A stretch of DNA of 64,000 nt, from the IMG/VR virus record IMGVR_UViG_3300005329_000012, positions 1-64,000 of that record; one strand, given 5' to 3'. Made by a program: the position numbers and the translations under genes. Under the pieces are notes generated by a model that saw only the letters and a program-made list of their open reading frames with translations, searched no databases and was not told where the DNA came from. Source of the stretch: a virus. Below are positions 2,160 through 57,264 of the stretch, one piece after another; position 1 is the stretch's first letter, and each line of letters starts with the position of its first letter.

Positions 2160-4118
2160 ATGGCGACCCTTGTCACCCCGCAGAACGAGGTCTACCAGCG
2201 GCTCCTCGCGCTCGGGTGGGACCTCAAGCGGATCGACTTCAAGGGCGGCCAGTACGTCGCCCGCGGCTCAAACGACGACGCCGGGCTGGAGGTCGAGCGC
2301 ACGGGCAAGACGCCCGAGCAGGCGCTCCTCGGCGTGTTCACCTACGCCCAGCGCGCCGCGGAGATCAGGCGGTTCGCCGCTCTGAGGAGGCTCGGCGCCT
2401 GGCAGGCCGACTTCACCTCGCAGAAGTCGGAGATCGCCAAGGCGTACCGCGCGCTCCCCGCGTTCGACGCGGGCGCGATCGACGCCTGGACGGCGCTCGC
2501 GGCCGAGAGCAAGGCGCAGGCCGACGCCGTGCGCAAGCAGATCCAGGTCTCCTACGAGGACGACCCCGAGCCGTACGACAGCGCGCGCGAGATGGCCGAC
2601 GACGTGAAGCTGCGGCAGAAGCTCACCGTCTCCCGCTTCGGGCTCGACCACCCGGTCTGGACGCCCGAGCAGGTGCTCGACTTCAGGACCGTGCACGACG
2701 CGGTCGGCCATGTGCAGAGCGGCGGCGACTTCACCTGGCGCGGCGAGAACATGGCCTTCGCGACCCACGCCCCGCTCGTGTCCCCGCTCGCGCAGGAGGC
2801 GCTGTTCGTGGAGGTCCTCGGCAGGGCCGCCTACAACGACGACTTCCGCGGCGTCGGCCCCGAGAAGGTCGGCCTCATGACCGAGTTCCTCAGGCCCGCG
2901 CAGGCGGCCGAGGGGCACCACGTCGGCGTCCCGCACGGCACCATGGCCGTCCCCTACCAGGACGAGCAGGCCCAGCGCGAGGCGGACGAGAACGCCCGCC
3001 AGCGCGCGGTCTACGACCAGCAGGTGCTCAAGGACCTGCCGAAGGGTCCGTTCGACCTCCCCTCCGTCTCGGACGGTTGGAAGGCGAAGCCGCGCCCGGC
3101 GTTCAAGCCGCGCCGCGGCGTCTACGACTGGGCCGCCGACCCGGGCTGGAGGACCGCCGACACCGCCGTCGACCGCCTGAGGGAGATCCACGGCGACCTC
3201 CCGGCCGACCCCGACTACGGCGACCTCGCGTACCAGCCGGACGAGCGCAAGGTGTACTGGAACGTGGGCGACGGCTACCCGCAGGACGCGATCGACGAGG
3301 GCACGCGCCGCTTCGAGGCCGACCCGGGCGTCGACTCGGTCGAGGTCGCCGACGAGGGGCCGCACGTCCCCGGCGGCTGGGTCAGCGTCGCCATGCCGGT
3401 CGTGCGCCCGCAGTACGTGGACCAGGCCCTCCAGGCCATCCACCCGGACGAGCTGCACCAGGGCGAGTGGAAGGCGGCCGAGGGCACGCACTGCCCGAAC
3501 CCGAAGTGCCCGCACGTGCTCACGCCGGACGAGGAGGCGCAGATCCAGCAGACCGGGTACTTCACCTGCCCGGAGTGCCACGGCGAGTTCAACATGATGG
3601 AGGACGAGGGCTGGACCCGCGCCGGGCTCGGCCTGACGCAGATGGGCTGGATCGGCGAGCAGGCGGTCCTCGACCAGGGGACGATCCCCGGCCTCGGGAC
3701 CTTCCGCGCCGCCCACTCGGGCGGGAAGTGGCCCATCGACGCGATCCTCGACGGCGAGGACGGCGTGGCCTACGGCTGCGAGATCAAGAGCAACCACTCA
3801 CAGGCGCAGGAGCGGTTCAAGGTCGGCAAGAAGGAGGAGCGCGACAGGAAGATCGCCTACTGCCTCGCACACGGGCTCCAGCCCGCGCTGGTGGGCGTCC
3901 GCCTCAACTTCTACACCGACGCGGCCGACGTGTTCTTCCGGCCCGGCCTGACCGACACCTGGATCGGCAACAGCCAGATGCGCCACGTGGCGACGCTCGA
4001 CTTCTCGAAGCTGAACCCGTTCCTCGCCCCGACGCCGCAGGCCCAGGCCGAGGCCGTCGAGGGCGCCGACATCCCCGACCAGTCGCTCCAGACGGAGGAC
4101 GACGACATCCCGTTTTGA
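2160..4118 (+). CDS. Large protein with zinc ribbon and C-terminal PD-(D/E)XK-like nuclease domain
   Basis: A 652-residue protein. The N-terminal third carries a clustered His/Glu motif: H179-D180-x-x-G-H184, then GEN near 197 and FATH near 204, looking like a metal site. Residues about 443-475 hold a CxxxxC...CxxC zinc ribbon. Near the C-terminus D527 (WPIDAIL), E541 and K543 (GCEIKS) fit the D...ExK core of PD-(D/E)XK nucleases, followed by a basic helix. The combination suggests a DNA-processing or virion-internal protein. Upstream of the capsid genes such a protein could travel in the head (inference). It could also be a Holliday-junction-type or homing nuclease. Confidence 0.6.
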   Translation: MATLVTPQNEVYQRLLALGWDLKRIDFKGGQYVARGSNDDAGLEVERTGKTPEQALLGVFTYAQRAAEIRRFAALRRLGAWQADFTSQKSEIAKAYRALPAFDAGAIDAWTALAAESKAQADAVRKQIQVSYEDDPEPYDSAREMADDVKLRQKLTVSRFGLDHPVWTPEQVLDFRTVHDAVGHVQSGGDFTWRGENMAFATHAPLVSPLAQEALFVEVLGRAAYNDDFRGVGPEKVGLMTEFLRPAQAAEGHHVGVPHGTMAVPYQDEQAQREADENARQRAVYDQQVLKDLPKGPFDLPSVSDGWKAKPRPAFKPRRGVYDWAADPGWRTADTAVDRLREIHGDLPADPDYGDLAYQPDERKVYWNVGDGYPQDAIDEGTRRFEADPGVDSVEVADEGPHVPGGWVSVAMPVVRPQYVDQALQAIHPDELHQGEWKAAEGTHCPNPKCPHVLTPDEEAQIQQTGYFTCPECHGEFNMMEDEGWTRAGLGLTQMGWIGEQAVLDQGTIPGLGTFRAAHSGGKWPIDAILDGEDGVAYGCEIKSNHSQAQERFKVGKKEERDRKIAYCLAHGLQPALVGVRLNFYTDAADVFFRPGLTDTWIGNSQMRHVATLDFSKLNPFLAPTPQAQAEAVEGADIPDQSLQTEDDDIPF

Positions 4119-9225: not shown

Positions 9226-12200
9226 ATGGAACTCTGGTGGGGACGGGTGGCGGCGGGCGACATGCCCCAGTTCCGCGACCCCGGCGGCGAGGTCTGGACG
9301 TGGGACCCGACCACGCATACGTACGTCAAGCGGCCCGAGAAGGCCATCCCCGACCGCTCGCACGCCTCGGGCGGCGACAACGAGCTGTTTGACCCGGCGA
9401 CGCAGACCGAGCTGCCGAAGAACCCCCTCATGGAGGGTTACATGGCGCGCACGGCCGACTTCGACTTCGGCGGTGAGGCTCCCGAGCCCGACGTCGTGTA
9501 CATGCTCCCGCCCGGCACCGACTGGGTCGTGTGGGAGGACGTGAACGGCGCGCTCAGGACCATGACCGACGAGGAGGTCGTGGAGATGGCCCGGGAGAAC
9601 CTGCGCCAGTTCGGCGGCTCCGACGTCGACCTGCTGCGCCACGACCCCCAGACGCCCGAGCAGGCGTGGGAGGTCATCAACGAGATCTGGGAGGGCGACC
9701 CGGGCGGCCGGGGCTGGCAGCTCCGCGTGCCGCAGGGCGCCCAGTGGGTCCAGATCGAGTTCCCTGGCGAGGACGACCCGCGCTGGGGCGGCGCCGACCC
9801 CCGCGTCGCGCACTTCGGCTCCGGGCAGCCGCCCGCGGGCCTGGAGGTCCGCCAGCCGGACACGGCCGTCTTCGGCGACGAGCAGATGACGGACGCCCTC
9901 AAGGAGATCGACCGCCACCTGAACCCGGACGACAGGCCCGGCGACACGACGTTCCCCGAGCACTGGGGAGCGGCCTTCGCCGAGCCCGGCCAGGTCCTCT
10001 GCCCGAACTGCCAGACGTCGACCGAGTTGCCCCAGTGCCCCCAGTGCGGCAAGGGGCTCAAGCCCGAGTGGGACAAGCGCGGGGAGACCGACCCGAACGA
10101 GACCGACTTCGCGGGCCAGGTCGTGAGGCACCCAGACGGCATGCCCGACCGCGCGCCCAAGCGCAACCGCATGAAGACGGACGACACGTACCCGAGCATG
10201 CTGTCGTCCTGGAGGCCGCGCCCCGGCGAGAAGGTGCACCTGCTCGGCCAGGAGACCGTGACCGGGACGTACATGGGTCCTGCGAACCTCGGCGGCGGCA
10301 CGATGGCGTCCGTCCTCTGGGACTCGGGCGACCGGAGCCCGGTGGCGTACGCCCAGCTGACGTCCGGCCCCGCCGCGCCGGACAGCATGGGCGTATACCC
10401 GGTCGCCAAGCAGGCGGCCGACGACTGGGGCCTCGACGCCTTCAGCGACCGGACCGAGGTCGGCAAGTGGATCCAGGACGTCACCGGCCAGCTCCACGCG
10501 ACCGCGGACTACGGCGGCGAGAACCACGAGCAGCTCGCGCAGGAGTGGGGCCTGGACTGGAACAGCGACATCGGCGCGCTCGGCTCGGTCTTCGACGACG
10601 GCTCGGCCGACACGCAGTGGGTCAAGCAGGGCTTCCAGTTCGACCCGAAGGCGGTCGAGCCCAACCTCCAGTCGATCTTCCAGCAGCCGCTCGGAGGCAA
10701 GCTCGTGCACCTGAACCCGCCCGCGGGCGAGGCGCAGCAGAAGGAGGACGCCTTCCAGCCGTTCGAGATCAGGGCGGGCCAGTGGATCTTCCCGCCCGGC
10801 GTCCCCGCGGCGACCGGCGTCGCGTGGGTCAAGGAGCGCAGCGACGGCGTCCAGTTCCGGCCCGGCATGGTCCTGGTCGCGGAGCACCTTCAGCCCGACG
10901 ACTTCCACCTGTACTCGCAGCGCCCGGCCGCGATCATCACCGCCACGGGCGGCTCGACCTCGCACGCCGCGCTCATCGCGCGCGAGCAGGGGTGGCCGGT
11001 CGTGATCGGCATCGGCGGCGACGCCTACAGCAAAATCGAGACCGGCAACTACGTAAAGGTTGACAACGCGGGGCAGACGACGAACCCGCGAACAATCACA
11101 GTGATGCCCACGCCAAACCAGCAGAACTCACAGTCGGTCTGGGACTCCATCCTGAGGTACCGCCAGGACCAGGAGCGAAACCAGCCCTCCCTCAGGCCGT
11201 CCCTCCCGGGCGCCTTCGGGGGCCTCGTCCAGGCCGTCGCGGCCCGGGTGGCCGCCGCCCCCTCCCTCGACTCGTGCCCCGACTGCGGCGGCCCGCTGAC
11301 GGAGCGCGGCGACGAGAAGATCTGCCACGACTGCGGCACCAGGCAGCCGATCATCGCGCTCAGGGCGGCCACGGCCGCCGTCAAGGCGCCGATGGTCAAC
11401 AGCGCGACCGGCGAGCCCTTCGAGGGTCTCCTGGTCGTCGCGTCCGTGCACGGCCAGGGCGTCGGCTACCTCGTGGGCGAGCCGTACGGCGAGGGCTACC
11501 GCACCGACTACATCTACGTCGACCCGTCCTTCCGGCGCGGCGGCATCGGCAAGCAGCTCGCCGCCACCGCGCGCGAGAACGGCCTCATCCCCTACGTCAC
11601 CCAGCCCGACCAGGTCTACAGCGACTCCGGCGCGGCCCTCGCGGGCGCGCTCTACGGCCACCACTCGCTCTCGCGCACCGCGCGCAGGGCGGTCGGCGGA
11701 CCGGCGCTCGCCGTACCGGCCGAGGCGCTCCTCGGCGGCGGTGCCGCCGCTGGCGGCGCTGCGGGCGGCGGCGGCCTCATGGCCGGTCTCATGGGCGGCG
11801 GCGAGGGCGTCAGTGGCATCGGCGGCCTGATGCGCGGCGCGATGAACCCCGGCAGCTTCCTCCAGGGCCAGGGCCTCAGGAGCCTCATCCCGGGCCAGGG
11901 AGGCCCGGCAGGCCCGAGCCCGAACGCGAGCGTCCCGCCGGAGGGTCCGACGGGCGCGGGCACGTTCGCGCACTTCCTCTACGCCGACACGTTCGGCGAG
12001 GAGGAGACCGGCAGGGCCACCAAGAACCGCGGGGAGAACAGCGACCCCGACACCGCTTCGAGCACCGGCATCGAGGGCGAGAAGGAGCACGGCGACTCGC
12101 CCGAGCAGCTCAAGGACGTGGACGGCGGCCCCGCGAAGGGCATGTCCGACGCCACGGACCCGTACGGCGACCCCGACCACTGGAGCGACGAGCAGAAGGA

Positions 12201-14052
12201 CGCCGTCCGCGCCTTCGAGGTCAACCTCCCGCTCATCCAGGACTTCGCGGAGAGCGAGGACTCGGGCGCCGACCACCCGATCATCCAGGCGATCGACGCG
12301 ATGCTGGAGGACGCTTTCCCCGGCTACAAGGAGCTGGGAGACGGAGGAGAGGAGCCGGATGGTGAACAGGTGGAGTCGCTTGAGGAGCTTTCAGGAAAGG
12401 ATCTCGACGGCGACGACGAGGCTGGAGAGGGCGAGGAGCACAAGGACGCCGTACAGGAAGGTCCCGATGAGGATGAGGACGAGGAAGACGAGCTGAGCAA
12501 GCTCGGCGGCGCCCCGGTCGTGGACATGGGCGGCTACGGGATCATCGACCCGTACTCGCGCCCCGGCCAGGGCGGCGGGCAGCTCGGCGAGATGGGCCTG
12601 GTGACGGACGCCCAGGGCAACGTCGTCGGGCAGTTCATCCGCCACAACGACAACGGCACGATCAAGATCCTGACCGGCGAGGGCTACAAGGACGTGGACC
12701 CGCGCTCGGTCACGGTCCAGAAGGCCGCGAGCGAGCTGTTCCGGCACGCCGACTTCGCCCCGCCGTTCGGCAACGACGCGCAGCAGACGCCTCCCGTCAC
12801 GGGAGTGCCGACCTGCCCGACGTGCGGCCAGAACCACATGCCGGGCACGCCGTGCCCGACGGGCGGCGTCCAGCAGCCCCAGGCGCAGCCGATGGTCGGC
12901 ATGCAGCCGATGGTGCAGCCGGGCGTCCAGCCCAAGGTCGTGACGCACGCGACCGAGTCGCACATCGCCAAGTGGGCCGACACGGAGGGCAACCCCCTCA
13001 AGGTCGGCGCCGACTACGAGCTTCGCTCCCCCGGCTACGCTGTCCCCGACTACGTCGTCGTGGACCACGTCCTGCCGGACAAGCTGGTCTACACGATCAC
13101 GTCCGGCGACATGAAGTACCGGGACAGCCTCACGGCGAAGGAGGTCCGCACCCAGGGCCTTGAGTTCGCCCCGAAGGTCGAGGGGCCGACCTCGAAGGAC
13201 GGCTTCGAGGCAACCGCGGCGCACGGGGACTTCCCCGACGACGGCGGCTTCGCCCCGGGCCTCGGCCCCGACGCCGACCTGCCGATGGAGCTTCCCGAGG
13301 ACTTCCCGCTCGTCTGCCCGAACTGCGGCGGCGGCGCCAGGGCTGGCGCCACGGCCTGCCCGCACTGCGGCTCGCGCGACATCAAGCCCGGCATCGAGAG
13401 CCCGATCTACGACGAGGCCCCGGTCAGGCCCGGAGCCGACCCGATCCCCCAGGTGGACGACCTGACCGAGCCCCCGACCAGGGTGAGCACGGCGATCATC
13501 CCGGGCCAGGGGCAGGGCGGCGCCTACCCCGACGCGGGCCATCTCGCGGAGTGGGAGGCGGCGACCCGCAACCAGAGCGACGCCGAGCTGAGGCAGATGA
13601 TCTCCTCGGGCAAGCTCAGTCCCGAGGCCGTGGCCTTCGTGCAGCAGAAGCTCCAGGAGCGCGCGCGCATGCAGCCGCAGCGCCCGAGCTACCGCGAGAC
13701 GCTCCAGGACCAGGCGGGCCGCGGCCTGCCGATGGGCCAGTACTACCCGCCCGGCGACCCGCGCAGGACGCAGGGCTCCGCCGAGCCCGAGGCGTTCGAG
13801 GGCCTGGAGGACTACACCGGCTCGTTCAAGGGCGACAGCCCGGACGACCGCTCGTGGCTCATGGAGGGCTCGCCCGGGCAGGGCGTGGACGTGGACCCGG
13901 CCCTGATGGCGAAGCTGGCGGGCAAGGACTTCTCGCCGCGCGAGCAGCGCGAGTTCATCGACGAGAGCGGCGAAGCCCGCAACCTGGGCAAGCTCGACCT
14001 CGACGGCACGCACTACATCGCTGACGAGACCGACAGCGCCTTCAACTGGTAG
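9226..14052 (+). CDS. Giant multidomain protein: PEP-utiliser swivelling domain, GNAT-like motif, four zinc ribbons
   Basis: A 1608-residue protein. Residues about 258-280: zinc ribbon (CPNC...CPQC). Residues about 545-600: TGGSTSHAALIAREQGWPVV matches the swivelling phosphohistidine domain of PEP synthase, pyruvate phosphate dikinase and rifampicin phosphotransferase, with H580 as the phospho-acceptor; no ATP-grasp or PEP-barrel partner is visible. Residues 683-705: second zinc ribbon. Residues about 761-786: VDPSFRRGGIGKQL, the acetyl-CoA loop of GNAT acetyltransferases. Residues 838-868 are Gly-rich and 920-1090 very acidic. Two more zinc ribbons lie near 1196 and 1364-1382. The position before collar and capsid genes suggests a virion or assembly protein, perhaps ejected (inference). 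Confidence 0.6.
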   Translation: MELWWGRVAAGDMPQFRDPGGEVWTWDPTTHTYVKRPEKAIPDRSHASGGDNELFDPATQTELPKNPLMEGYMARTADFDFGGEAPEPDVVYMLPPGTDWVVWEDVNGALRTMTDEEVVEMARENLRQFGGSDVDLLRHDPQTPEQAWEVINEIWEGDPGGRGWQLRVPQGAQWVQIEFPGEDDPRWGGADPRVAHFGSGQPPAGLEVRQPDTAVFGDEQMTDALKEIDRHLNPDDRPGDTTFPEHWGAAFAEPGQVLCPNCQTSTELPQCPQCGKGLKPEWDKRGETDPNETDFAGQVVRHPDGMPDRAPKRNRMKTDDTYPSMLSSWRPRPGEKVHLLGQETVTGTYMGPANLGGGTMASVLWDSGDRSPVAYAQLTSGPAAPDSMGVYPVAKQAADDWGLDAFSDRTEVGKWIQDVTGQLHATADYGGENHEQLAQEWGLDWNSDIGALGSVFDDGSADTQWVKQGFQFDPKAVEPNLQSIFQQPLGGKLVHLNPPAGEAQQKEDAFQPFEIRAGQWIFPPGVPAATGVAWVKERSDGVQFRPGMVLVAEHLQPDDFHLYSQRPAAIITATGGSTSHAALIAREQGWPVVIGIGGDAYSKIETGNYVKVDNAGQTTNPRTITVMPTPNQQNSQSVWDSILRYRQDQERNQPSLRPSLPGAFGGLVQAVAARVAAAPSLDSCPDCGGPLTERGDEKICHDCGTRQPIIALRAATAAVKAPMVNSATGEPFEGLLVVASVHGQGVGYLVGEPYGEGYRTDYIYVDPSFRRGGIGKQLAATARENGLIPYVTQPDQVYSDSGAALAGALYGHHSLSRTARRAVGGPALAVPAEALLGGGAAAGGAAGGGGLMAGLMGGGEGVSGIGGLMRGAMNPGSFLQGQGLRSLIPGQGGPAGPSPNASVPPEGPTGAGTFAHFLYADTFGEEETGRATKNRGENSDPDTASSTGIEGEKEHGDSPEQLKDVDGGPAKGMSDATDPYGDPDHWSDEQKDAVRAFEVNLPLIQDFAESEDSGADHPIIQAIDAMLEDAFPGYKELGDGGEEPDGEQVESLEELSGKDLDGDDEAGEGEEHKDAVQEGPDEDEDEEDELSKLGGAPVVDMGGYGIIDPYSRPGQGGGQLGEMGLVTDAQGNVVGQFIRHNDNGTIKILTGEGYKDVDPRSVTVQKAASELFRHADFAPPFGNDAQQTPPVTGVPTCPTCGQNHMPGTPCPTGGVQQPQAQPMVGMQPMVQPGVQPKVVTHATESHIAKWADTEGNPLKVGADYELRSPGYAVPDYVVVDHVLPDKLVYTITSGDMKYRDSLTAKEVRTQGLEFAPKVEGPTSKDGFEATAAHGDFPDDGGFAPGLGPDADLPMELPEDFPLVCPNCGGGARAGATACPHCGSRDIKPGIESPIYDEAPVRPGADPIPQVDDLTEPPTRVSTAIIPGQGQGGAYPDAGHLAEWEAATRNQSDAELRQMISSGKLSPEAVAFVQQKLQERARMQPQRPSYRETLQDQAGRGLPMGQYYPPGDPRRTQGSAEPEAFEGLEDYTGSFKGDSPDDRSWLMEGSPGQGVDVDPALMAKLAGKDFSPREQREFIDESGEARNLGKLDLDGTHYIADETDSAFNW

Positions 14053-14075: not shown

Positions 14076-14861
14076 ATGGCGCCCCGTTGGAGCAACCCGT
14101 CCGGAGAGCGAGGCGGCCGGAGGTTCAGGGTCTGGCCCGACGGGGCGGACCACTACAACCACTCCGAGCACACCGCGAACTGGGACATGATCGACGCCAT
14201 CATCGGCGTCCCCGAGGACGGCTCCGAGTGGCCGACGACGACAGGCGTCGACGGCGGCATCTACCAGGAGGTCCAGGCGCTCCAGCTCACGACCCTGCCG
14301 CTCGGCATGGTCATCCCGTGGTTCAGGGTCTCCGCAGGCGTGCCGGTCCCCGGCGCGTTCGAGGTATGCGACGGCCGGACCATCACCCAGGCCAGCCACG
14401 ACTTCGGCGCCATCGGCTCCATCACCCTCCCCGACATGAGGAACCGCTTCGCGCTCGGGGCCTCGGCGGCCAAGTCGATCGGCGACCCCGCCGTCGCGTA
14501 CGACCACGCCGACGTCAACACCGCGGCGGGCGCGCCCGGCCCGCAGGGGCTCGGCGGCTCGAACACGCAGACCCTCACGGTGGCCCAGATGGCCGCCCAC
14601 ACCCACTCGGGCAGCAAGACCGGCTGGGGGCCGCACGGGCTGTACTACGGGTACCAGACGCCGCTCAACACGGCCGACTACGACATCGTGCGGGGACCCG
14701 GCGGCGGCATGCAGCCCGACTCGGGCGACGGCGGCTGGGAGGTCGGGCGGCACCGGCACATCATCAACAGCCTCACGCCGGTCGGCGCGGGGACCGCGCA
14801 CGAGAACCGGCCGAGGCACTACGGCCTGATCTTCCTGGCGAAGGTGAGGCACGGTGGCTGA
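14076..14861 (+). CDS. Tail-collar-domain fibre protein, paralogue 1
   Basis: A 261-residue protein. It begins with a motif shared by the next two genes (RWSNPSG...FRVWP...NWD.IDAIIG), probably a particle-attachment segment. The central phage tail-collar pattern follows: VIPWFR, FEVCDGRTI, LPDMRNRFALGA, then AAHTHSGSKTGW and an AHENRP..YGLIFLAKV end. Collar-domain proteins form short trimeric fibre tips that contact the host surface. Overlaps paralogue 2 by 8 bp. Confidence 0.8.
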   Translation: MAPRWSNPSGERGGRRFRVWPDGADHYNHSEHTANWDMIDAIIGVPEDGSEWPTTTGVDGGIYQEVQALQLTTLPLGMVIPWFRVSAGVPVPGAFEVCDGRTITQASHDFGAIGSITLPDMRNRFALGASAAKSIGDPAVAYDHADVNTAAGAPGPQGLGGSNTQTLTVAQMAAHTHSGSKTGWGPHGLYYGYQTPLNTADYDIVRGPGGGMQPDSGDGGWEVGRHRHIINSLTPVGAGTAHENRPRHYGLIFLAKVRHGG

Positions 14862-15759
14862 CCGCTGGAGCAACCCGTCCGCGGGCGAGGGCGTCAACAG
14901 GTTCCGCGTCTGGCCGCTGGCGACCGACAGCTACGACAGCGACGAGTTCGCGGCCAACTGGGACAAGCTGGACGCGATCCTCGGCTACCCGCTGGAGGGC
15001 ACCTGGCCGCCCACGCTCGGCGTCGGCGGCGGCATCTACCGCGAGATCGAGATCGCCAAGGACGCGGCGGTCCCGCTCGGCGTCGTCTTCCCGTGGTACC
15101 GCCCGCACTCGTCCATCGCCCTGCCCTCGGGCGCGGTCCCGTGCGACGGCTCGGCCATCACGGCCGCGAACCACAGCTTCCCCGGCGGCGGCACCATCAC
15201 CGTCCCGGACCTCCGCAACGCCTTCGTGCTCGGCGCCGACGCCAGCAAGGCCGCCGGGGCCGCGGCGGCCGCGGCGGGCACCCCGGCCGCGGACACGGCC
15301 GCTGGCGCCCCCGGCCCGCAGGCGACGGGCGGCTCCAACGCGGTCGCCATGACCAAGGACTCGCTCCCGCTGCACAAGCACACGGGGAGCCTCACCGGCT
15401 GGTCGCCGAGGCTCCTGGACTACTTCAACCAGGGCGGCTGGAACGGCGCGACCTACGCGGAGCAGACCGCCAACAACTACCAGGTGCTCGACAACCGCGA
15501 CGAGGCCATCGCGCAGTGCGGCCCGCCGGGCTGCTACTGGTCCCCCGACAACTTCGGCCCGGTGATCACCGCGGTCGGCAACTTCGAGTACCAGGGCGCG
15601 GGCGGCTCCAACGCCTCCGCGGGCGCGGGCGGCTGGGACGACGGCCAGGACCGCCACTCCCTCGGCGCGCTGTCGAGCGAGGGGTCGGGCGCCGCGCACG
15701 AGAACCGGCCGCAGTACGTCGGCCTGATCTGGCTCGTGAAGGTGAAGGTGAGCGACTGA
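14854..15759 (+). CDS. Tail-collar-domain fibre protein, paralogue 2
   Basis: The GTG start at 14854 overlaps paralogue 1. Its 301 residues repeat the same plan: RWSNPS, NWDKLDAILG, FPWYRP, VPCDGSAI, VPDLRNAFVLGA, LHKHTGSLTGW and AHENRPQYVGLIWLVKV. The segment after the HxH strand is longer than in paralogues 1 and 3 and carries extra Asn/Gly-rich sequence, the expected place for receptor-specific divergence. Ends in an ATGA-type overlap with paralogue 3. Confidence 0.8.
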   Translation: MADRWSNPSAGEGVNRFRVWPLATDSYDSDEFAANWDKLDAILGYPLEGTWPPTLGVGGGIYREIEIAKDAAVPLGVVFPWYRPHSSIALPSGAVPCDGSAITAANHSFPGGGTITVPDLRNAFVLGADASKAAGAAAAAAGTPAADTAAGAPGPQATGGSNAVAMTKDSLPLHKHTGSLTGWSPRLLDYFNQGGWNGATYAEQTANNYQVLDNRDEAIAQCGPPGCYWSPDNFGPVITAVGNFEYQGAGGSNASAGAGGWDDGQDRHSLGALSSEGSGAAHENRPQYVGLIWLVKVKVSD

Positions 15760-16532
15760 TGGCCGACCGCTGGAGCAACCCCTCCGGGGCGCACGACATC
15801 GAGCGGTTCCGCGTCTGGCCCGCCGGGACGGACTCGTACGACCACGCCGAGCTGGCCGACAACTGGGACAAGCTCGACGCCATCATCGGCATCCCGTCCA
15901 CGGGCATCTGGCCCTCGTCCGAGGGCCTGGGCGGCGGCATCTACGGCGAGATCACCAGCGCCAAGGCGGCGGCCATCCCCGTCGGCGCCTGCTTCCCCTG
16001 GTTCCGCCCGAGCACGAGCATGGCGGTCCCCGAGGGCTACGTCATCTGCGACGGCCAGACCGTCAGCGACCACGAGGTACTGAACGTGACCGGCTCGTTC
16101 AGCGCGCCGGACCTGCGCAACCGCTTCATCATCGGCGCGTCGGCGACCACGCCGGTCGGCACCGCGAGCGCGGACGCCGCGTCGGCCAACGTCAACATCA
16201 CCCTCGGCGCCCCCGGCCCGGGCGGCGTCGGCGGCCTCAACTCCGTCGTCCTGACGGCGGACAACCTGGCCCCGCACCAGCACGCGGGCAGCGTCACCGG
16301 CTGGTCCCCGCCCAAGAAGACCTGGTACCAGGACGTCGGCGAGGCGGGCCAGTACGAGGTCCAGAAGGCCGGGCCGGGCAAGACCGTCGGCCAGGGCGGC
16401 GGCGGCTACGGCGCCGGGCGGCACCGCCACTACCTGAACGACCTGGCGGCCGACGGCGGCGGCAAGCCGCACGAGAACCGGCCCCGCTGGGTCGGCCTGA
16501 TCTGGATCATGAAGGTCCGGAACGCCAGGTAG
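15759..16532 (+). CDS. Tail-collar-domain fibre protein, paralogue 3
   Basis: The ATG at 15759 overlaps the TGA of paralogue 2. Its 257 residues have the same RWSNPSG head, FPWFRP, VICDGQTV, APDLRNRFIIGA, PHQHAGSVTGW and HENRPRWVGLIWIMKV landmarks. Together the three form a tandem family that arose by duplication. They may assemble as a heteromeric fibre or provide alternative tips (inference). Confidence 0.8.
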   Translation: MADRWSNPSGAHDIERFRVWPAGTDSYDHAELADNWDKLDAIIGIPSTGIWPSSEGLGGGIYGEITSAKAAAIPVGACFPWFRPSTSMAVPEGYVICDGQTVSDHEVLNVTGSFSAPDLRNRFIIGASATTPVGTASADAASANVNITLGAPGPGGVGGLNSVVLTADNLAPHQHAGSVTGWSPPKKTWYQDVGEAGQYEVQKAGPGKTVGQGGGGYGAGRHRHYLNDLAADGGGKPHENRPRWVGLIWIMKVRNAR

Positions 16533-17472: not shown

Positions 17473-19920
17473 GTGGCGCACCGCAAGTACGCAAGGTCGG
17501 AGGTACTCGGGGTCAAGTCGTCCGCCGAGCGGGCGGCGGCCCCGAGCCTCTCGGCCTTCTCGTCGTTCGACGACTACAAGACGGACGACGGCTTCCTGTA
17601 CGTGCGCGTGCGCGCGATCAGCTCGCGCGTCAACAAGAACCACGACGGCTGGCCCAGCGAGGAGCTGAGCAAGGCGTACCGGACGTTCGTCGGCAAGCCG
17701 ATCTTCGTCGACCACCACAACACGGACCCGAAGAAGGCCCGCGGCGTGGTCGTGGACGCGGCCCTGCACGTCGAGGACGACCTCGACAAGACGGCGAGCC
17801 TCGACCCGTACTACGCGTCGGCCCCCGAGAACCACCTGCCGCCCACCTGGATCGAGCTTCTGCTCGAAGTGGACGCCAAGCGGTACCCGAAGCTGGCGAA
17901 GGCGATCGTGGCGGGCGACATCGACGGCGTCTCCATGGGCGCCAACGTCGAGCGGAGCATCTGCTCGCACTGCGCGAACGTCGCGCGCTCGCCGGAGGAG
18001 TACTGCACCCACGTCCGGTCCAAGGGCGCGTACTTCGACTACTACGGCCCGGACGGCACCAAGACCTCGAAGAAGGCGTACGAGGACTGCTACGACATCG
18101 GCTTCTTCGAGCTGAGCTTCGTGTTCGACCCGGCCGACGAGACCGCGCTCAAGATCGACCACAAGATGGCCGCCAGGCGGCAGGCCATGGTGGACGTCTA
18201 CGCCGAGACCGACGGCCCGAGGACCGCGATGGCGAAGGTCGCCGCGGCCCTGGAGCCCGTCCCCGAGTGGGAGGGCGAGCCCGCCGAGCTGGGCGAGCCG
18301 TACAACCCCGAGAACCTCGCGGAGGCGCCCGCGGGCGACGACGAGGCCGCCACGGCGAGGGCCTGGAGGGTCGAGCAGTACATCCGCGCGGGCTACACGC
18401 CCGAGGAGGCCGAGGCCCTGGCCGACGCCACCGCCGGGCACCCCGGCCAGACCGGCGAGGGCAACGTCTACCCCGACGTCATGCGCACGATCGAGCAGGG
18501 CGCCACGCCGGACCAGGCCCGGAGGATCTGGGCCAGGACGCACGGCCTGGAGATCGACACCGCGGTCGCGGACGACGAGTTCCTCTGGAGCAAGACCGCC
18601 GAGCAGAACCCGCCGCCCCAGAGCGACATGACGACCGCCCCCGAGGACGTCGACACGCTCAGGCAGGACAAGACGTGCCCGATCTGCGGCTCGGACATGG
18701 AGGACGGCATCTGCGAGGTCTGCAACTACGAGGAGCCCCCGGAGGGCTTCGACAACCCGGACCTGGAGAAGGCGAAGGAGACCGACCTGCGCGAGGAGCA
18801 GCAGGCGGGCGAGGAGGCCCTCCAGCAGACGCAGGCCCAGACGCCCGGCGCCGCGACGCCCGGCGAGGGCTCGCAGATGGGTCCCGAGGGCGCGCCCGGC
18901 ATGACGCAGCCCATCCAGGCCAGCACAGCTTTCCCCGCCGCTGCGGACCCTGTAACTGATGACAAGACCTCCGAGCGCACCGCCGCCCGGACCAACACGC
19001 AGGAGAGGCCCATCCTCCCTGCGACTCGGAAGCTGACGGACAAGCCCAAGAACCCCAAGACGGTCAAGGACTCGAAGCAGCCGGTAGAGAGCAACCGAAA
19101 GGACAAGATGACAGAGACCACCCAGAAGGTTGCCGACGGAGCCACCCCCGTGGGGGAGGGCGTCCAGGCGGACAAGCGCGTGGACGTCGAGGGCGTGGGC
19201 GCCACCAGCCCGGACCCGCTGTCGGGAATCGAGCACCAGAACGTCGAGACCGAGACCGCCGACTTCACCGCGCCGAAGACCGACACGTGGTCCGGCGAGG
19301 AGGGCGACTCGCTCCAGAGCGCCGACGCCGTGACGTCGGACACCGGCGACTTCGCCACCGTCTCCTCCACCGAGAAGACGGCCGACGAGAAGACAGCCGA
19401 CATCGAGGTCATCGAGACCATCCCGTCGGGGAACGGCTTCCCCGACCACGACCCGTCCCACGTGGACCTGGAGGCCCTCCTGGCCGAGGAGGTCGGCGAC
19501 CGGACGGAGACCGACTCCACCGGCACGGCGTTCCGCTCCCTGGAGCAGGCCCCGGCCGTCACGAAGGGCGAGTCGGGCAACGACCTCGGGGGACCCGTGG
19601 GCGTCGCGCTCGCGAAGGCCCAGCTCCTCAAGGCCGTCAAGGTCGCGGAGGCGGAAGTGGACCTCGGGCTCATCGAGGCCGAGGCCAAGTTCGACCGCGT
19701 GGCCGAGCTGGAGGAGACCCCCGCGGAGGCGCTGGACGCCACCCTGGAAGCCCTCGCGAAGGTCAAGACGGCCGGACTCCGCAGGCCGAAGGCCGCCTCG
19801 CAGCGCACCGCCTCGGCGGGGCGCATGCCGAGCTTCCGCGCGCCGGGCGAGGGCTTCCTCGTCGAGGCCGCGGCCACCGACGCCGAGATCGACCGGCAGG
19901 TGGAGGACGCGATCTTCTAG
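17473..19920 (+). CDS. Prohead (capsid maturation) protease with C-terminal scaffold region
   Basis: GTG start; 815 residues. The N-terminal 230 residues look like a phage prohead serine protease: YVRVRAISSRVNKNHDGWP, then H81/H82 in FVDHHNTDP, and S154 in IDGVSMGANV as candidate nucleophile. Cys pairs follow (CSHCANVA...CTHV), and a CPICG...CEVC zinc ribbon lies near residues 400-420. The last 270 residues are acidic, coiled-coil-prone and disordered, typical of scaffold. Just upstream of decoration-like and major capsid genes, as in other capsid modules. It probably cleaves scaffold and capsid N-termini inside the prohead. Confidence 0.75.
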   Translation: MAHRKYARSEVLGVKSSAERAAAPSLSAFSSFDDYKTDDGFLYVRVRAISSRVNKNHDGWPSEELSKAYRTFVGKPIFVDHHNTDPKKARGVVVDAALHVEDDLDKTASLDPYYASAPENHLPPTWIELLLEVDAKRYPKLAKAIVAGDIDGVSMGANVERSICSHCANVARSPEEYCTHVRSKGAYFDYYGPDGTKTSKKAYEDCYDIGFFELSFVFDPADETALKIDHKMAARRQAMVDVYAETDGPRTAMAKVAAALEPVPEWEGEPAELGEPYNPENLAEAPAGDDEAATARAWRVEQYIRAGYTPEEAEALADATAGHPGQTGEGNVYPDVMRTIEQGATPDQARRIWARTHGLEIDTAVADDEFLWSKTAEQNPPPQSDMTTAPEDVDTLRQDKTCPICGSDMEDGICEVCNYEEPPEGFDNPDLEKAKETDLREEQQAGEEALQQTQAQTPGAATPGEGSQMGPEGAPGMTQPIQASTAFPAAADPVTDDKTSERTAARTNTQERPILPATRKLTDKPKNPKTVKDSKQPVESNRKDKMTETTQKVADGATPVGEGVQADKRVDVEGVGATSPDPLSGIEHQNVETETADFTAPKTDTWSGEEGDSLQSADAVTSDTGDFATVSSTEKTADEKTADIEVIETIPSGNGFPDHDPSHVDLEALLAEEVGDRTETDSTGTAFRSLEQAPAVTKGESGNDLGGPVGVALAKAQLLKAVKVAEAEVDLGLIEAEAKFDRVAELEETPAEALDATLEALAKVKTAGLRRPKAASQRTASAGRMPSFRAPGEGFLVEAAATDAEIDRQVEDAIF
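19108..19920 (+). CDS. Predicted in-frame nested scaffold protein (270 aa)
   Basis: An ATG at 19108, in frame with the protease gene (codon 546), follows AAAGGA at good spacing. It begins MTETTQKVADG, much like the starts of nearby genes. The product would be the acidic, helix-rich scaffold region alone. This matches the known lambda arrangement, where scaffold Nu3 is translated from inside protease gene C. Initiation here is an inference from the sequence. Confidence 0.5.
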   Translation: MTETTQKVADGATPVGEGVQADKRVDVEGVGATSPDPLSGIEHQNVETETADFTAPKTDTWSGEEGDSLQSADAVTSDTGDFATVSSTEKTADEKTADIEVIETIPSGNGFPDHDPSHVDLEALLAEEVGDRTETDSTGTAFRSLEQAPAVTKGESGNDLGGPVGVALAKAQLLKAVKVAEAEVDLGLIEAEAKFDRVAELEETPAEALDATLEALAKVKTAGLRRPKAASQRTASAGRMPSFRAPGEGFLVEAAATDAEIDRQVEDAIF

Positions 19921-20661: not shown

Positions 20662-21717
20662 ATGACTCTCACAGCACGCACCGCGAAGTCCTCCGAGGAC
20701 TACGTCGAGAAGCTCGCCTCGCTGCCGAAGCTCACCAAGGCCGAGAAGCAGCAGCGCCTCGCGACGATCCTCGCCGACAAGGCCAGCGGCATGCACCGCC
20801 TCGGCCAGGGCATGATCGGCCCCATCCAGATCCGCCTGCGGTACGAGGGCATGGTCCGCAACGTCCTCCTGGAGGACACGCTGGAGCGCGGCCCGCTCAT
20901 GCCGTACGACATCCTCGACGACCTGGGAATGGCCTACATCCTGAACTCCACGGATGCCGAGGTCAAGATCCAGATGTTCGAGGGCAAGCAGGCGTTCCCC
21001 GCCCTGTTCCGCATCGCGTCGTTCCCGAAGATCCGCAAGGAGGATCTGTACTACCTTCGGGTCAACGCCGTCGAGTACGCGCAGGACGAGTCCCGCCAGG
21101 CCATCCAGAAGCAGGAGGACTACAAGCTCATCCAGCTCCTGGAGACCGCGATCGTCGAGCATGGCGCTGCCGGGCAGACCCCGGTCGGCGGCATCGCGAC
21201 GGGCATCTCGGCCGGTCCTTCCACGGACCTCACCGAGAAGACCGTCCTCGTCGGCGCGAACAACCCGCTGGAGCCGGTGGACTTCTACAGCGCGGTCTCG
21301 ATGATCGAGATCGAGCAGCTGGAGGCGTCCAGGGTTCTCGCTCACCCGCAGGACATCCGCGACCTCTACACCTGGGACATCAACGTCACGGGCTGGAGCT
21401 TCAAGGACAAGGTCTTCGCGGGCGAGAAGATCACCAGCTTCGGTGAGTTCCAGGTCCAGAAGTCGGTCATGGTCCCGCAGGGCGAGACCTTCCTGACCGC
21501 GGACCCGGAGTTCGTGGGCGTCTTCCCGGTGATGTACTCCCTCGACGTCGAGGAGAACCACCAGGTCGAGCAGTTCCACAAGGGCTGGGTCATGGACGAG
21601 CTGGTCGGCATGATGATCCTGAACGCCAGGGGCATCGCGCGAGTCCGCAAGGACGACGACAACAGCCCGGACAGCGGCATCGTCACCAACATCGCGGAGC
21701 GCGGCCTCTACACCTAG
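20662..21717 (+). CDS. Major capsid protein (HK97-fold type)
   Basis: A 351-residue protein behind a strong ribosome site (agaaagagacagaag). It has a charged helical N-terminal arm (SSEDYVEKLASLPKLTKAEKQQR), suited to proteolytic removal. Features resemble HK97-fold capsids of large myophages: YEGMVRNVLLEDTLERGPLMPYDI, a spine-helix region near 145-165, and a C-terminal half containing DINVTGWSFKDKVFAGEKI and the VMVPQGETFLTADPEFVGVFPV beta sheet. Flanked by terminators, consistent with its own abundant transcript. Substrate of the upstream protease. Confidence 0.8.
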   Translation: MTLTARTAKSSEDYVEKLASLPKLTKAEKQQRLATILADKASGMHRLGQGMIGPIQIRLRYEGMVRNVLLEDTLERGPLMPYDILDDLGMAYILNSTDAEVKIQMFEGKQAFPALFRIASFPKIRKEDLYYLRVNAVEYAQDESRQAIQKQEDYKLIQLLETAIVEHGAAGQTPVGGIATGISAGPSTDLTEKTVLVGANNPLEPVDFYSAVSMIEIEQLEASRVLAHPQDIRDLYTWDINVTGWSFKDKVFAGEKITSFGEFQVQKSVMVPQGETFLTADPEFVGVFPVMYSLDVEENHQVEQFHKGWVMDELVGMMILNARGIARVRKDDDNSPDSGIVTNIAERGLYT

Positions 21718-36188: not shown

Positions 36189-38009
36189 ATGGCGCTCGAA
36201 CTCGTAGGGCAGCAGTCGATCGCGGTCGACCAGGCGGTCGAGCCCGCGCTGCGCTTCAGCCACCCGCAGATGGACACGGACCTCGTGATCCGGTCCGGCG
36301 CGAACTCCATCAAGTGGAGCTACGAGCTGAACACGCAGAGCACGCCGACCCTCGGCGGCGAGGTCGTGCAGATCCTCTCGTGCTTCGTCGGCCCGATCAC
36401 GATCGAGGGGATGGCCGCGGGCCTCCCGACCGACGGCTCGAAGGCGCGCTCGACCGGCTGGGCTGGGGGCTACACGCCCGCCGACGAGGCCCAGGACATC
36501 GTGCGCTGGTTCCTCCGCTACATGCACATGGCGGGCGGCGTGCAGGATCCGGGCGACTCCGACCGCAACCAGGCCGCGGTCCGGTTCACCTACGTCGCGC
36601 GCGGGTGGAGCTTCTTCATCATGCCGACGCAGCTCAGCGGCTTCGACTTCTCGGCCGACCAGGCGGGCGTCCCGTGGTCGATCACGGCCGAGATCGTGTC
36701 CGACGCCGGGCTCGACTACTTCCAGGCGGCGACGATGAACACCTTCACCGACTCGCTGACGGACCACGCCCTGCTCCAGACGGCCATCACGCCGGGCTTC
36801 GACTTCTCGCAGAACCCGTTCATCAACCCGACCCTGGCGGCGCCGGGCCTGGACAGCCTGGCCCAGCGGCTCGGCGACAACTTCCAGACGCTCGTGGCCT
36901 CGTGGGCGGGCTCGAACTTCATGACCTGGGGCTTCAACCCGCTCGGCGACCCGGGCGACATCAACAAGACCGACCCGTACTCGGTCTGGAACCAGCTCCT
37001 CGGCGGCGAGTACCTCGGCCAGATCCCGTCCGGCGGCTACACCGACTACCTCGGCAGCGCCTTCAACTCGTCGGTCTCGTCGGACGGCACCGACGGCGGC
37101 TCGGCGGTAACGATCGGCGGCGCCCAGGCCCCGCAGTGGGTGTCCGACGTGCTCAGCGGCCTCGGCTACCAGGCGACGCAGGAGAACGTCTGCTTCATGA
37201 AGTCCTGGTGGTCCGCCGAGGGCGGGGGCACCGGGTCGAGCAAGGCGAAGTTCAACTGGCTCAACGTCAACGCGGGGCCGCCGTCGCCCCCGGGCACGGA
37301 CTTCTTCGTGTCCTCGAACGGCGTGCACATCGCCATCTTCCCCGACTACAAGACGGGCGTCGAGACGACCATTAAGTTCATCCGGGACACGGGGAACTAC
37401 AACGACATCCTGGAGGCGCTCAAGAGCGGCAACCCGCTCCTGAACTGGCCGACCACCGGGCTCGTGAAGTGGGTCGGCCCGGGCGGCGGGAACTACGGCG
37501 GCAACATCTACCAGGCGACCAAGCGGTGCGTCCAGGCGGCGCTCGACGCGGCGGACGCGCAGGTCGGCGACCAGGGCGGCAAGCGCGGCAAGATCCTGGA
37601 GTACATCCTCGCGGCCGAGGGCAACAAGGCGAACTGGCACTACGCGTTCGGCGGCCCGGCGGGCAGGAGCGAGTTCGGCGTGGACCCGTCCAGGCGGACG
37701 CCGATCTACACCGACTGCTCGGGCTACACGGCCCTCTGCTACGACGCCATCGGCATCCGCATCCCGGCCCAGAGCGACTCGCAGGGCCAGCTCTCGACCG
37801 CGCGCCACGTGACGGAGAACTACAAGTGCGGCGACCTCTGCATCTACCCCGGCCACGTCACGATCGTCGCCACGGCGGGCAGCGCGTCCTCGGCCACGGT
37901 GTCGAGCTTCGGCGGCGACCCGCCGAGCTACGACGACCAGCCCGCCAGGCGGCAGGGCGTCAACTACCGCGGCGACCTGGAGTACGTCGTGAGGATCCTG
38001 GCGGACTGA
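36189..38009 (+). CDS. Tail-associated lysin with glycosidase-like and NlpC/P60 domains
   Basis: 606 residues. The N-terminal 215 residues are a tail structural domain (ELNTQSTPTLGGEVVQIL). Residues about 333-420 (MKSWWSAEGGG...FPDYKTGVETTIKFI...YNDILEAL) resemble the transglycosylase-like module found in mycobacteriophage tape measures, with E343 as candidate acid. The C-terminal domain carries C510 in TDCSGYTALCYDA and a histidine in YPGHVTIVA near 556, the NlpC/P60 pair. It would open the cell wall during injection. Starts one base after the tape measure stop. Confidence 0.75.
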   Translation: MALELVGQQSIAVDQAVEPALRFSHPQMDTDLVIRSGANSIKWSYELNTQSTPTLGGEVVQILSCFVGPITIEGMAAGLPTDGSKARSTGWAGGYTPADEAQDIVRWFLRYMHMAGGVQDPGDSDRNQAAVRFTYVARGWSFFIMPTQLSGFDFSADQAGVPWSITAEIVSDAGLDYFQAATMNTFTDSLTDHALLQTAITPGFDFSQNPFINPTLAAPGLDSLAQRLGDNFQTLVASWAGSNFMTWGFNPLGDPGDINKTDPYSVWNQLLGGEYLGQIPSGGYTDYLGSAFNSSVSSDGTDGGSAVTIGGAQAPQWVSDVLSGLGYQATQENVCFMKSWWSAEGGGTGSSKAKFNWLNVNAGPPSPPGTDFFVSSNGVHIAIFPDYKTGVETTIKFIRDTGNYNDILEALKSGNPLLNWPTTGLVKWVGPGGGNYGGNIYQATKRCVQAALDAADAQVGDQGGKRGKILEYILAAEGNKANWHYAFGGPAGRSEFGVDPSRRTPIYTDCSGYTALCYDAIGIRIPAQSDSQGQLSTARHVTENYKCGDLCIYPGHVTIVATAGSASSATVSSFGGDPPSYDDQPARRQGVNYRGDLEYVVRILAD

Positions 38010-50252: not shown

Positions 50253-52460
50253 ATGCCCTTCCCCGTAGGAGACACCTTCGACGACCCGCGCGGGCGCTGG
50301 AACGTCCCGACCCCGTGGGACGACTCCATCACGGAGGAGGTCGCCAACCCCTCGGCGGCCGACTTCCTGGCGACGCAGGAGCACGTCGACCTGCGCTCGT
50401 TCCGCGTCGCGGCGGACTCCCTCGCGGTGCCGCAGTACCCCGACCTGGACACGGTGCCCCAGGACCCGTACCTGGACGACGTCTTCCAGACGAACCTTGA
50501 GGTCAAGCTCGGCGACATCTTCTCCGAGGACTGGCTGACCGACACCCACAGCGGCCTGACGCACTCGTACAGGGGCGCGTGGGACGTGACGGTCGCCTAC
50601 TCGTCGGGGGACGTGGTGGAGTACAAGGGGAAGCACTACTCCGCGACCGGCAGCACGACCGGCGAGGCGCCGACCGGCATCGGCGCGCCGTGGAGCGAGA
50701 CGTTCTTCTACGGGAAGATCGCGTCGCGCGGCGGCTGGTACGGCCTCCAGGTCACGACCGACGGCTCGGCGCTGGACACCGCGCTCCGCAGCTCGATCCC
50801 CGGCGACGCGGTCGACATCTCGAACGAGGACAAGCTCTCGATCGTCTTCCCGGACTGGCACACGTTCACGGCCGCGACGAGCACGGTCCAGCTCACGTCG
50901 AGCCCCGACGGCTCGTTCGGGACGGCGGCCTTCAACTCGGCCGCGGTCGCGTTCACCGGCAACACCGCGACCCTCCCGGAGCTGAGGCTGGCCCTGTCCG
51001 GCTTCACGTCCGGCGCGGGCACGGGCTTCACCCTGTCGTCCGTCTCGGGCATCAAGATCACGCTGAAGGGCTCGCCCGGCGCGGCCCAGACGATCACCGT
51101 CATGGCCGTCAGGGCCGTGAAGGACTCCTGGGTGCCGAGCGCGCTCGACTTCGACACGCGCTGGGGCATCATCACCCCGCCGGTCACGCTCGACGGCGCC
51201 GCCTACGCGGGCAGCGTCGCCAGGGCGTTCGAGTTCATCCGCGGCAACGGCACGCCGGACGACCCGTTCCCGGTGGACGGCGCCTACACGCTGTTCTTCA
51301 GCGGCGGGGGCGGGACCTCCCCGGCCGACGCCGTGCCGCCGCTGGTCAACACGCTCGCGATCATCCTCCGCGAGACCAAGATCTCCGACTCCGACGACGG
51401 CTCCGCGATCGTGGTCAGGCTCAAGTGGAACGAGGACACGCTGGAGTTCGAGGCGCAGCGGCGCGACACGGCCGCGGGCGTCACGAGCTACACGACGCTC
51501 TACCAGGAGACGATCAGCGCGCAGGGGCCGGACCCCAACTCCCTGTACGCCTGGAACGTCAAGCTGGTCGGCAAGAGCCTCGACTCGCGCGTGCTCCAGG
51601 TCAACCGCTCGCACGACACCGTAAGCACGGTCTGGACGCTCGACACGCAGAGCAGCGACGACTGGACCTTCCGCAACGGCCGCGTCGGCTTCATGGCCGA
51701 CCTGCTCAACCGGGACGCCTACGTCTCCGAGCTGACGCAGGCGCCGGTCGGCTACGCCACCCTGACGACGCGCGTCTACGAGGCCAGGACGCCCGTGGAC
51801 GGGGCGCGCCTCCAGGCGGTCTTCGCGCCGGACGGCGACCTGTTCCAGACGCTCGACGGCCCGGACGCCTTCCGCGACCAGACCAAGACCGTCTCGGGCG
51901 CGGGCGGCATCCGCACGCTCTCCGGGCTCGACACGAACCAGTTCGTCGTGGACGACTGGTACGAGACGTACCTGGAGGCGCAGATCTGGGTGCCCGCCAA
52001 CGTCTCCCGGGCCAACCAGCCCACCATCTCGCTCCAGTCGGGCGGCTCCTCGTACCCGCTCGTGATGCCGAGCCTCCAGCCGTCGCAGTGGAACTCGCTC
52101 CGCTTCGAGCTGCGCCGCTTCAAGGACCTCATCACCGGCCTGCCGTACAGCTTCAACTTCGGCCCCGGCGAGGCGCCGGACACCCCGCTCGGCTTCTTCT
52201 GGGTCGACTCGGTCGTCATCGGCCGCCGCCGGGTCTCCTGGAGCGTTCGCGCGGTCGAGAACGGCCCGTGGCGGCGCTTCTACGGCCTGGTCAACGACCC
52301 GAAGGGCGCGGTCCACTTCAACCCCGACGAGAGGGGCCGGTTCCTCCAGCTGAGGGCCGAGGCGCTGACCAACGACGCCTGGGTCAGCGAGTTCACCCTG
52401 TTCCCGCACTACGCCGAGCTGGGCCTGCCGCTGTACGACCGCGGGTTCGAAACCCGCTAG
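50253..52460 (+). CDS. Fibre-like protein with chitin-binding-type module (735 aa)
   Basis: Starts 6 bases after the previous gene, next to TAACAGGCG. Residues about 106-155 (YRGAWDVTVAYSSGDVVEYKGKHYSA...APWS) match the carbohydrate-binding ChtBD3/CBM5-12 outline (W, GDVV, Y, W). The rest consists of several beta-sandwich segments (YTLFFSGGGG, LRFELRRFKDLITGLPYSF). It probably binds cell-wall sugar as a receptor-binding or side-fibre protein. The 3' end contains GCGGGTTCGAAACCCGC, a hairpin covering the last codons. Confidence 0.65.
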   Translation: MPFPVGDTFDDPRGRWNVPTPWDDSITEEVANPSAADFLATQEHVDLRSFRVAADSLAVPQYPDLDTVPQDPYLDDVFQTNLEVKLGDIFSEDWLTDTHSGLTHSYRGAWDVTVAYSSGDVVEYKGKHYSATGSTTGEAPTGIGAPWSETFFYGKIASRGGWYGLQVTTDGSALDTALRSSIPGDAVDISNEDKLSIVFPDWHTFTAATSTVQLTSSPDGSFGTAAFNSAAVAFTGNTATLPELRLALSGFTSGAGTGFTLSSVSGIKITLKGSPGAAQTITVMAVRAVKDSWVPSALDFDTRWGIITPPVTLDGAAYAGSVARAFEFIRGNGTPDDPFPVDGAYTLFFSGGGGTSPADAVPPLVNTLAIILRETKISDSDDGSAIVVRLKWNEDTLEFEAQRRDTAAGVTSYTTLYQETISAQGPDPNSLYAWNVKLVGKSLDSRVLQVNRSHDTVSTVWTLDTQSSDDWTFRNGRVGFMADLLNRDAYVSELTQAPVGYATLTTRVYEARTPVDGARLQAVFAPDGDLFQTLDGPDAFRDQTKTVSGAGGIRTLSGLDTNQFVVDDWYETYLEAQIWVPANVSRANQPTISLQSGGSSYPLVMPSLQPSQWNSLRFELRRFKDLITGLPYSFNFGPGEAPDTPLGFFWVDSVVIGRRRVSWSVRAVENGPWRRFYGLVNDPKGAVHFNPDERGRFLQLRAEALTNDAWVSEFTLFPHYAELGLPLYDRGFETR

Positions 52461-54725: not shown

Positions 54726-54910
54726 GCGATCCTCCTCGCGGCGAAGGCGGGCTTCCTGCCCTCGGCGGCCATGTCCGCCCGGATCTTCTCGATGGCCCGG
54801 GCGGTCAGCGGGTTCGTCGACGCGGCCTTGTCCAGGCAGATGCTCGGCGAGATCCAGGGGAGCGCCTGGAGCATCAGGCCGCAGTGCTCGTGGCCGCACT
54901 CAGCTCCCAC
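54722..54910 (-). CDS. Hypothetical small protein between reductase and thioredoxin (62 aa)
   Basis: ATG at 54910 lies inside the reductase end (11-bp overlap), and its stop overlaps the thioredoxin GTG. An N-terminal CGHEHC and a later Cys could bind zinc. The second half is a basic helix (ARAIEKIRADMAAEGRKP). The tight packing supports it as a real coupled gene. Perhaps a cofactor or regulator of the reductase; unproved. Confidence 0.65.
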   Translation of the reverse strand: MGAECGHEHCGLMLQALPWISPSICLDKAASTNPLTARAIEKIRADMAAEGRKPAFAARRIA

Positions 54911-56768: not shown

Positions 56769-56792
56769 AGGTACCCTTCGAAGGAGGTACGA

Positions 56793-57218: not shown

Positions 57219-57264
57219 GTCGGCAACAGGCCGACTCAAGCTCCGAGCGAGGCAGGGAACGAAC

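Follow-up and report, generated by a model that had tools for sequence, protein, structure and literature searches.

A predicted phosphohistidine swivelling domain without its customary partners in a giant phage head-module protein

Introduction

What is a phosphohistidine swivelling domain, usually found within metabolic enzymes, doing without its customary partners in a giant protein whose gene adjoins the capsid genes of a soil phage? The question is raised by a 1608-residue protein encoded in an 89.5 kb virus contig (IMG/VR record IMGVR_UViG_3300005329_000012), of which the first 64,000 nucleotides, termed the window, were analysed here. An initial annotation made from the DNA alone had proposed that this giant is one dedicated effector for phosphotransfer and acetyltransfer, encoded in an early module or borne on the virion. 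Here, we report that the protein combines domains in a new way, within a family of phage head-module giants that is already known but functionally uncharacterised.

Results

The codon-position GC of the open reading frame (ORF) was 0.70/0.49/0.96, which is the pattern of a genuine high-GC gene. A second IMG/VR contig carries an identical copy of the ORF, and an assembly chimera is therefore unlikely. The actual start could be M13 (position 9262), since the similarity to the giant of the nearest relative, locus L013, starts there. The features of the giant and its neighbours are listed in Table 1.

Table 1 Features of the giant gene and of the adjoining head-module genes in the window
Feature	Position (nt)	Strand	Residues or remarks	Evidence
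Giant mosaic protein	9226..14052	+	1608 aa	ORF (ATG start), codon-position GC
Zinc ribbon 1	10000..10047	+	C259/C262/C271/C274 (aa 259-274)	PF12773 DZR; cysteines retained in L013
Orphan PEP-utiliser swivelling (phosphohistidine) domain, predicted	10798..11076	+	aa 525-617	PF00391, PDB sequence matches, AlphaFold, Foldseek
Active-site motif	10939..10983	+	T572-ATGGSTSH580-AALIAR586; H580 codon 10963-10965	
Zinc ribbon 2	11275..11334	+	C684/C687/C700/C703	pLDDT 91-93; conserved in L013
Minimal GNAT domain, likely	11416..11676	+	about aa 731-817	PF13508 and PF00583 above cut-offs
CoA loop in GNAT	11518-11559	+	VDPSFRRGGIGKQL	Sequence
Acidic linker	11983..12510	+	33% D+E; short conserved segment aa 992-1040	
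CCHC knuckle-like module	12814..12855	+	C1197/C1200/H1204/C1210	Identical spacing in L013, CPMCGQSHIAGTPC
SH3-like barrel	12976..13173	+	aa 1251-1316	blastp to relatives; pLDDT about 96
Zinc ribbon	13315..13368	+	C1364/C1367/C1378/C1381	PF13248 Zn_ribbon_3
C-terminal family motif (proposed anchor)	13906..14034	+	aa 1561-1603, KLAGKDFSPREQREFIDESGEARNLGKLDLDGTHY	HMM
Three tandem tail-collar paralogues	14076-14861, 14854-15759, 15759-16532	+		PHROG tail collar/fibre, Pfam Collar
Prohead maturation protease	17473..19920	+	Long C-terminal extension	phrog_18299 3.6e-22, phrog_2774 1.5e-69
Major capsid protein (MCP)	20662..21717	+	Myrna/Bxz1 type	phrog_2522 3e-97

Residues 545–613 of the giant matched the PEP-utilizers family PF00391 in Pfam with an E value of 4e-16 and 58.8 bits (cut-off 23.1), in agreement with the initial annotation, which had placed the mobile domain of PEP-utilising enzymes around H580. 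A 130-residue piece searched alone against PDB sequences matched PEP synthase chains (6.3e-10) and enzyme I (3e-5 to 2e-4). In an AlphaFold model spanning residues 495–830, for which the input included 42 relatives from viral contigs, residues 525–614 showed pLDDT values of 85–96. Foldseek comparison of the model with the PDB yielded 27 fold matches at E ≤ 0.001, every one a PEP-utiliser or a swivel-bearing pyruvate kinase; they included rifampin phosphotransferase (RPH), pyruvate kinases, enzyme I (EI), and PPDK. Taken together, the Pfam and PDB sequence matches, the pLDDT values, and the Foldseek matches give the predicted swivelling domain good support in both sequence and fold.

The named histidine, H580, was located inside the intact motif TATGGSTSHAALIAR and is the first residue of a helix in the model; at the sequence level, the dikinase hallmark of a swivelling domain with a catalytic His is present. 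An alignment of 43 sequences (the giant included; nearly all the others are proteins having an ATP-grasp domain) contained ten invariant columns, namely G531, P557, T572, G575, G576, T578, H580, A581, A582, and A585. The giant keeps all ten, including the Thr two residues ahead of the His. T/S-x-x-GG-x-x-x-H with a Thr two residues before the His is the motif published for the swivelling domain family (PMC12167813). The bacterial pyruvate kinase 2e28, however, retains ITEEGGLTSHAAVV in its swivel-like extension without an ATP-grasp partner, and the intact motif of the giant is thus no proof of phosphotransfer.

As the initial annotation had stated, neither partner of the swivelling domain is visible in the protein: the ATP-grasp profile PF01326 (PPDK_N) gave no match in the giant or in the whole 89.5 kb record, and a pyruvate- or rifampin-binding domain was not found in the giant. 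PF01326 was also absent from six phage records, which included the source virus and a 150 kb relative, while 13 of 14 control genomes were positive. The source virus and the L013 virus each contained one PF00391 match, and no phage beyond these two turned up when this swivelling domain was searched for; a search of genome contigs found no relative of the domain. Several relatives are 150–168 kb in length. The shorter source record may be incomplete, and a partner gene could therefore be located in the sequence missing from it.

The active-site pattern was found at 80 viral loci, nearly all of which encoded PEP synthase or a phage PPDK-like dikinase with the ATP-grasp on the same protein. The remaining loci comprised one enzyme I-like protein and a few truncated or short ones (L078, L084, and L092), and the long complete ORFs with neither an ATP-grasp nor a PTS-I-type partner were all of the giant family. 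One of the short loci (L092:2048-2428) encodes a swivelling domain on its own, about 110 aa long, and none of the ATP-grasp references used matched within 8.4 kb of this viral contig. Phage PPDK-like dikinases that join an ATP-grasp to a swivelling domain in about 560–870 aa are found repeatedly in viral contigs (L055, L056, L057, and many of L074–L139); all three annotated phages have a protein-tyrosine phosphatase gene near the dikinase gene, and two of them also have the terminase nearby. Three human faecal 'Bacteriophage sp.' records (MT835602, MT837101, and MT838023) were rejected as phage relatives, as they encode ordinary PEP synthase or enzyme I.

The initial annotation had also noticed a GNAT acetyl-CoA loop about 180 residues after H580. 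The loop begins at residue 765, 185 residues past H580, and its RRGGIG fits R/Q-x-x-G-x-G/A. Two Pfam cut-offs were passed over residues of about 731–786, by PF13508 (E 9.5e-7; 29.6 bits, cut-off 27) and by PF00583 (E 1.8e-4; 22.2 bits, cut-off 20.7). The profile match covers only the central part of the domain. While the swivelling region was modelled confidently, the GNAT stretch reached pLDDT values of 49–69, a low-confidence model, and its fold match to the GNAT protein YpeA was weak (Foldseek E about 0.09). These profile matches suggest that the GNAT domain is likely genuine but minimal. A search for further phages with this GNAT returned the source virus only.

All 15 cysteines of the giant lie inside four zinc modules. 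The initial annotation had counted four zinc ribbons; the number holds, with the correction that the third module is CCHC knuckle-like and the other three are double-CxxC ribbons. Seven CxxC motifs were seen against 0.13 expected, a number reached by none of 5000 composition shuffles. The SH3-like barrel is common to many ribbon-type members of the giant family according to blastp. Its Foldseek matches were weak and of the NdhS/KOW/tudor type (best E 0.02); nothing beyond such weak SH3-like matches was obtained for the C-terminal region of the giant.

L013 comes from a 150 kb contig, and its stretch has 58% GC against 70% for the window. The MCPs of the two viruses are 87% identical, whereas the giants share about 38% identity over the longest aligned segment. 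The L013 giant retains the swivelling domain (56% identity) with TATGGMTSHAA, as well as the ribbons; the Arg after the motif is lost (R586 to T), and no GNAT was found in this protein. A weak GNAT, below the cut-off of PF13508 and above that of PF00583, occurs in a different large ORF of the L013 virus, which adjoins a tail-fibre-like ORF. In a related phage, G002 (IMGVR_UViG_3300037222_000100), a GNAT and a CCA-adding tRNA nucleotidyltransferase are parts of one fusion protein. From these finds, GNATs appear to be spread over several large proteins of this phage group. The G002 protein (L143:1-3114, minus strand; at least 1038 aa) is polyvalent-like, with a YunG-like region, the GNAT, and the nucleotidyltransferase with HD.

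Since the GNAT is missing from the L013 giant, which does have the swivelling domain, and both are missing from other family members, the two domains are separate cargo modules in a mosaic, and the proposal of one dedicated phosphotransfer and acetyltransfer effector was not upheld. The swivelling and GNAT folds might have been reused in a head protein as inert modules for binding or spacing, like the SH3-like barrels and Ig-like domains of virions, with the His motif left as a relic or folding aid. Such reuse would suit a fast-evolving mosaic of linkers and many small binding modules, a minimal GNAT with a low-confidence model, and the precedent of 2e28, in which the motif persists without an ATP-grasp. 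However, the motif and the invariant positions were kept while the remainder of the giant diverged to about 38% identity, and in an inert module the His/Thr/Gly loop should relax. We consider structural reuse rather unlikely, though a serious alternative.

A tblastn search of annotated phage records with the whole giant identified no relative. About 200 phage records matched its C-terminal end, weakly (E about 0.05). An HMM was then built from the last 75 residues of 18 relatives, with the giant under study left out. It found the giant at an E value of 2.7e-14 and gave exactly one significant match per record in 9 of 9 records. The match indicates that the giant is a family member although whole-protein searches miss it, and the giant has the family consensus AGRxYSxxEQxxLIDE...ARNLDxLDLxGTHY. 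The motif was considered as a possible general packaging signal and rejected, as it was not found again on other proteins of the same phage. Among the genome contigs, it occurred in one small contig of a Ferruginibacter MAG, which was not taken as evidence of the host.

In Myrna, Tonenili, Pinkcreek, Skog, E3, and Finch, a protein of 600–1270 aa is encoded just ahead of the protease and capsid genes; the counterparts in cultured phages are labelled hypothetical, LysM-like, or endolysin. From the C-terminal motif and the gene position, both read from sequence, we assign the giant to a fast-evolving family that precedes the prohead protease and MCP in Myrna/Bxz1-like (Ceeclamvirinae-related) actinobacteriophage myoviruses. 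Domains identified among 32 family members were LysM (5), double zinc ribbons (4), PEP-utiliser (2), NUDIX (1), and GNAT (1). Two subfamilies were distinguished: a SWIM finger marks the first (16 loci, the cultured Myrna, E3, and Skog among them), and CxxC ribbons mark the second, which is uncultured and contains the giant. The SWIM-finger giants include those of cultured Mycobacterium, Gordonia, and Rhodococcus phages (family loci L012–L049). Neither SWIM nor LysM was found in the giant, and uncultured ribbon-type relatives sharing the C-terminal motif are likewise without SWIM; both domains mark a subfamily rather than the family. The split suggests that a zinc module is needed in this family yet exchangeable. 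Because other members bear LysM, NUDIX, SWIM, or zinc ribbons, the swivelling and GNAT domains seem to be cargo that can be swapped.

The LysM members also raise the possibility that the ancestral job of the family is peptidoglycan binding or lysis at entry, kept by the giant with other domains. LysM was detected in 5 of the 32 members, and the Tonenili, Pinkcreek, and Skog proteins are annotated 'LysM-like endolysin' or 'endolysin'. In contrast, no LysM or lytic domain of Pfam or PHROG was matched in the giant, and the NlpC/P60 domain of this phage sits elsewhere, making a cell-wall entry role very improbable. That NlpC/P60 domain belongs to a tail-region protein at 36189-38009. A tail-fibre protein at 50253-52460 bears a CBM_5_12 carbohydrate-binding module, and the large subunit of ribonucleotide reductase is encoded at 54900-57296 on the minus strand, near replication genes.

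The gene order in the window is giant, collar paralogues, an ORF at 16602, protease, and MCP. The MCP matched 215 phage records, mainly of Myrna/Bxz1-type Mycobacterium phages, plus Gordonia and Rhodococcus phages; among the matches listed, its identity to phages of these three genera was 52–57%. The collar paralogues are 41–45% identical to one another. These tail-type genes are placed inside the head module, with the giant gene on one side and the protease on the other; the corresponding interval of L013 holds two ORFs, and one of these matches the collar paralogues. No portal gene could be placed in the window, and positions 2160-4118 gave no match to the portal region of Myrna.

Since the giant gene stands in the late head module, immediately upstream of the protease and capsid genes, the earlier suggestion of an early-module protein is not supported; the position fits the other half of that suggestion, a virion or head protein. 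It would also suit a giant that acts late in assembly rather than after injection, as a scaffold or inner-head core that is cut by the prohead protease and whose cargo modifies phage or host proteins. The acidic and glycine-rich linkers would fit such processing, and the collar, protease, and capsid genes follow directly downstream. The LysM and 'endolysin' labels within the family, however, point to a role at the cell envelope or in entry, and we regard late-assembly action as unlikely.

Discussion

By sequence and analogy, we tentatively favour, at somewhat less than even confidence, a head-associated, polyvalent-like giant that would attach through its C-terminus, enter with the DNA, and have H580 charged in trans by a host donor. 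The chassis would be a fast-evolving giant that exchanges enzyme-like cargo while its C-terminal motif stays conserved, and that also has zinc modules and an SH3-like domain. The C-terminal motif would attach it to the capsid or portal during assembly, and giant and DNA would then enter the cell together, a route that has been proposed for polyvalent proteins. H580 would receive a phosphoryl group in trans from the host, either from the ATP-grasp part of PEP synthase, PPDK, or an RPH-like dikinase, or from PEP/enzyme I, and this group would be passed to, or drained onto, a host acceptor. Packaging, delivery, phosphorylation in trans, the acceptor, and acetyltransfer by the giant are steps that we infer, and the model of a head-associated giant with a host-charged phosphocarrier draws on HpeH/HpeI (PMC12167813) and on the polyvalent-protein survey (PMC5512222).

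A more specific version seems to us distinctly unlikely: a phosphohistidine carrier delivered by the virion would take its phosphoryl group from a host dikinase or PTS component and would either divert phosphoryl flux or phosphorylate a host molecule, while the same polypeptide also held an acetyltransferase. Against the favoured model, this swivelling domain occurs in two viruses only, L013 has lost the Arg after the motif, and two cargoes without an evident common substrate argue against a single coherent pathway. In the literature searched, we found no description of a phage effector with such phosphohistidine-carrier chemistry and no virion proteomics for the giant or its relatives. The orphan domain suggests either that the ATP-using partner is borrowed from the infected bacterium or that the domain has been given a new job. 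A swappable cargo slot is indicated in a giant head-module protein of cultured cluster C-type actinobacteriophages, so far called 'LysM-like', 'endolysin', or hypothetical. If the giants are packaged, they would be tractable in M. smegmatis phages, where both the cargo and the C-terminal anchor could be tested directly.

The PF00391 fold and the His motif of the mobile domain are common to the giant and to rifampin phosphotransferase, PEP synthase, and PPDK, but the giant is without their ATP-grasp (PF01326) and their pyruvate- or rifampin-binding domain. A precedent for a swivelling domain and an ATP-grasp on separate polypeptides is the two-component dikinase HpeHI, in which the swivel protein HpeH is charged by the separate ATP-grasp protein HpeI with no stable complex, the His being essential (PMC12167813). 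HpeH has a substrate-binding domain and the dedicated HpeI (PMC12167813); no counterpart of either was found for the giant. The pyruvate kinases 2e28 and 3t05, with a C-terminal swivel-like extension, resemble the giant in having a swivelling domain without an ATP-grasp, the motif being intact in 2e28; there, the swivel is fused to a complete enzyme, in contrast to the phage head-module protein here.

Polyvalent proteins of phages and plasmids are multi-enzyme proteins encoded beside phage structural genes and are argued to be packaged and injected; the survey names GNATs both as domains of such proteins and as neighbours of mycobacteriophage structural genes (PMC5512222). The giant is similarly large and multi-domain, with a GNAT and another enzyme-like domain, and their hallmark of several enzyme-like domains in a gene near structural genes is present in it. 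The terms phosphohistidine, swivel, and zinc ribbon are absent from that survey (PMC5512222).

Within the family, about two thirds of the scanned members are recognised by the profiles phrog_2940 and phrog_30974, and the giant was unmatched at the threshold used. The closest described counterparts are Ceeclamvirinae-type proteins, namely Myrna gp96, E3 gp76 ('LysM-like protein'), and Tonenili gp250 ('LysM-like endolysin'), which share with the giant the pre-protease position, the C-terminal motif, and a long mosaic with a zinc module. Compared with them, the giant lacks LysM, has CxxC ribbons in place of SWIM, and carries in addition the swivelling and GNAT domains.
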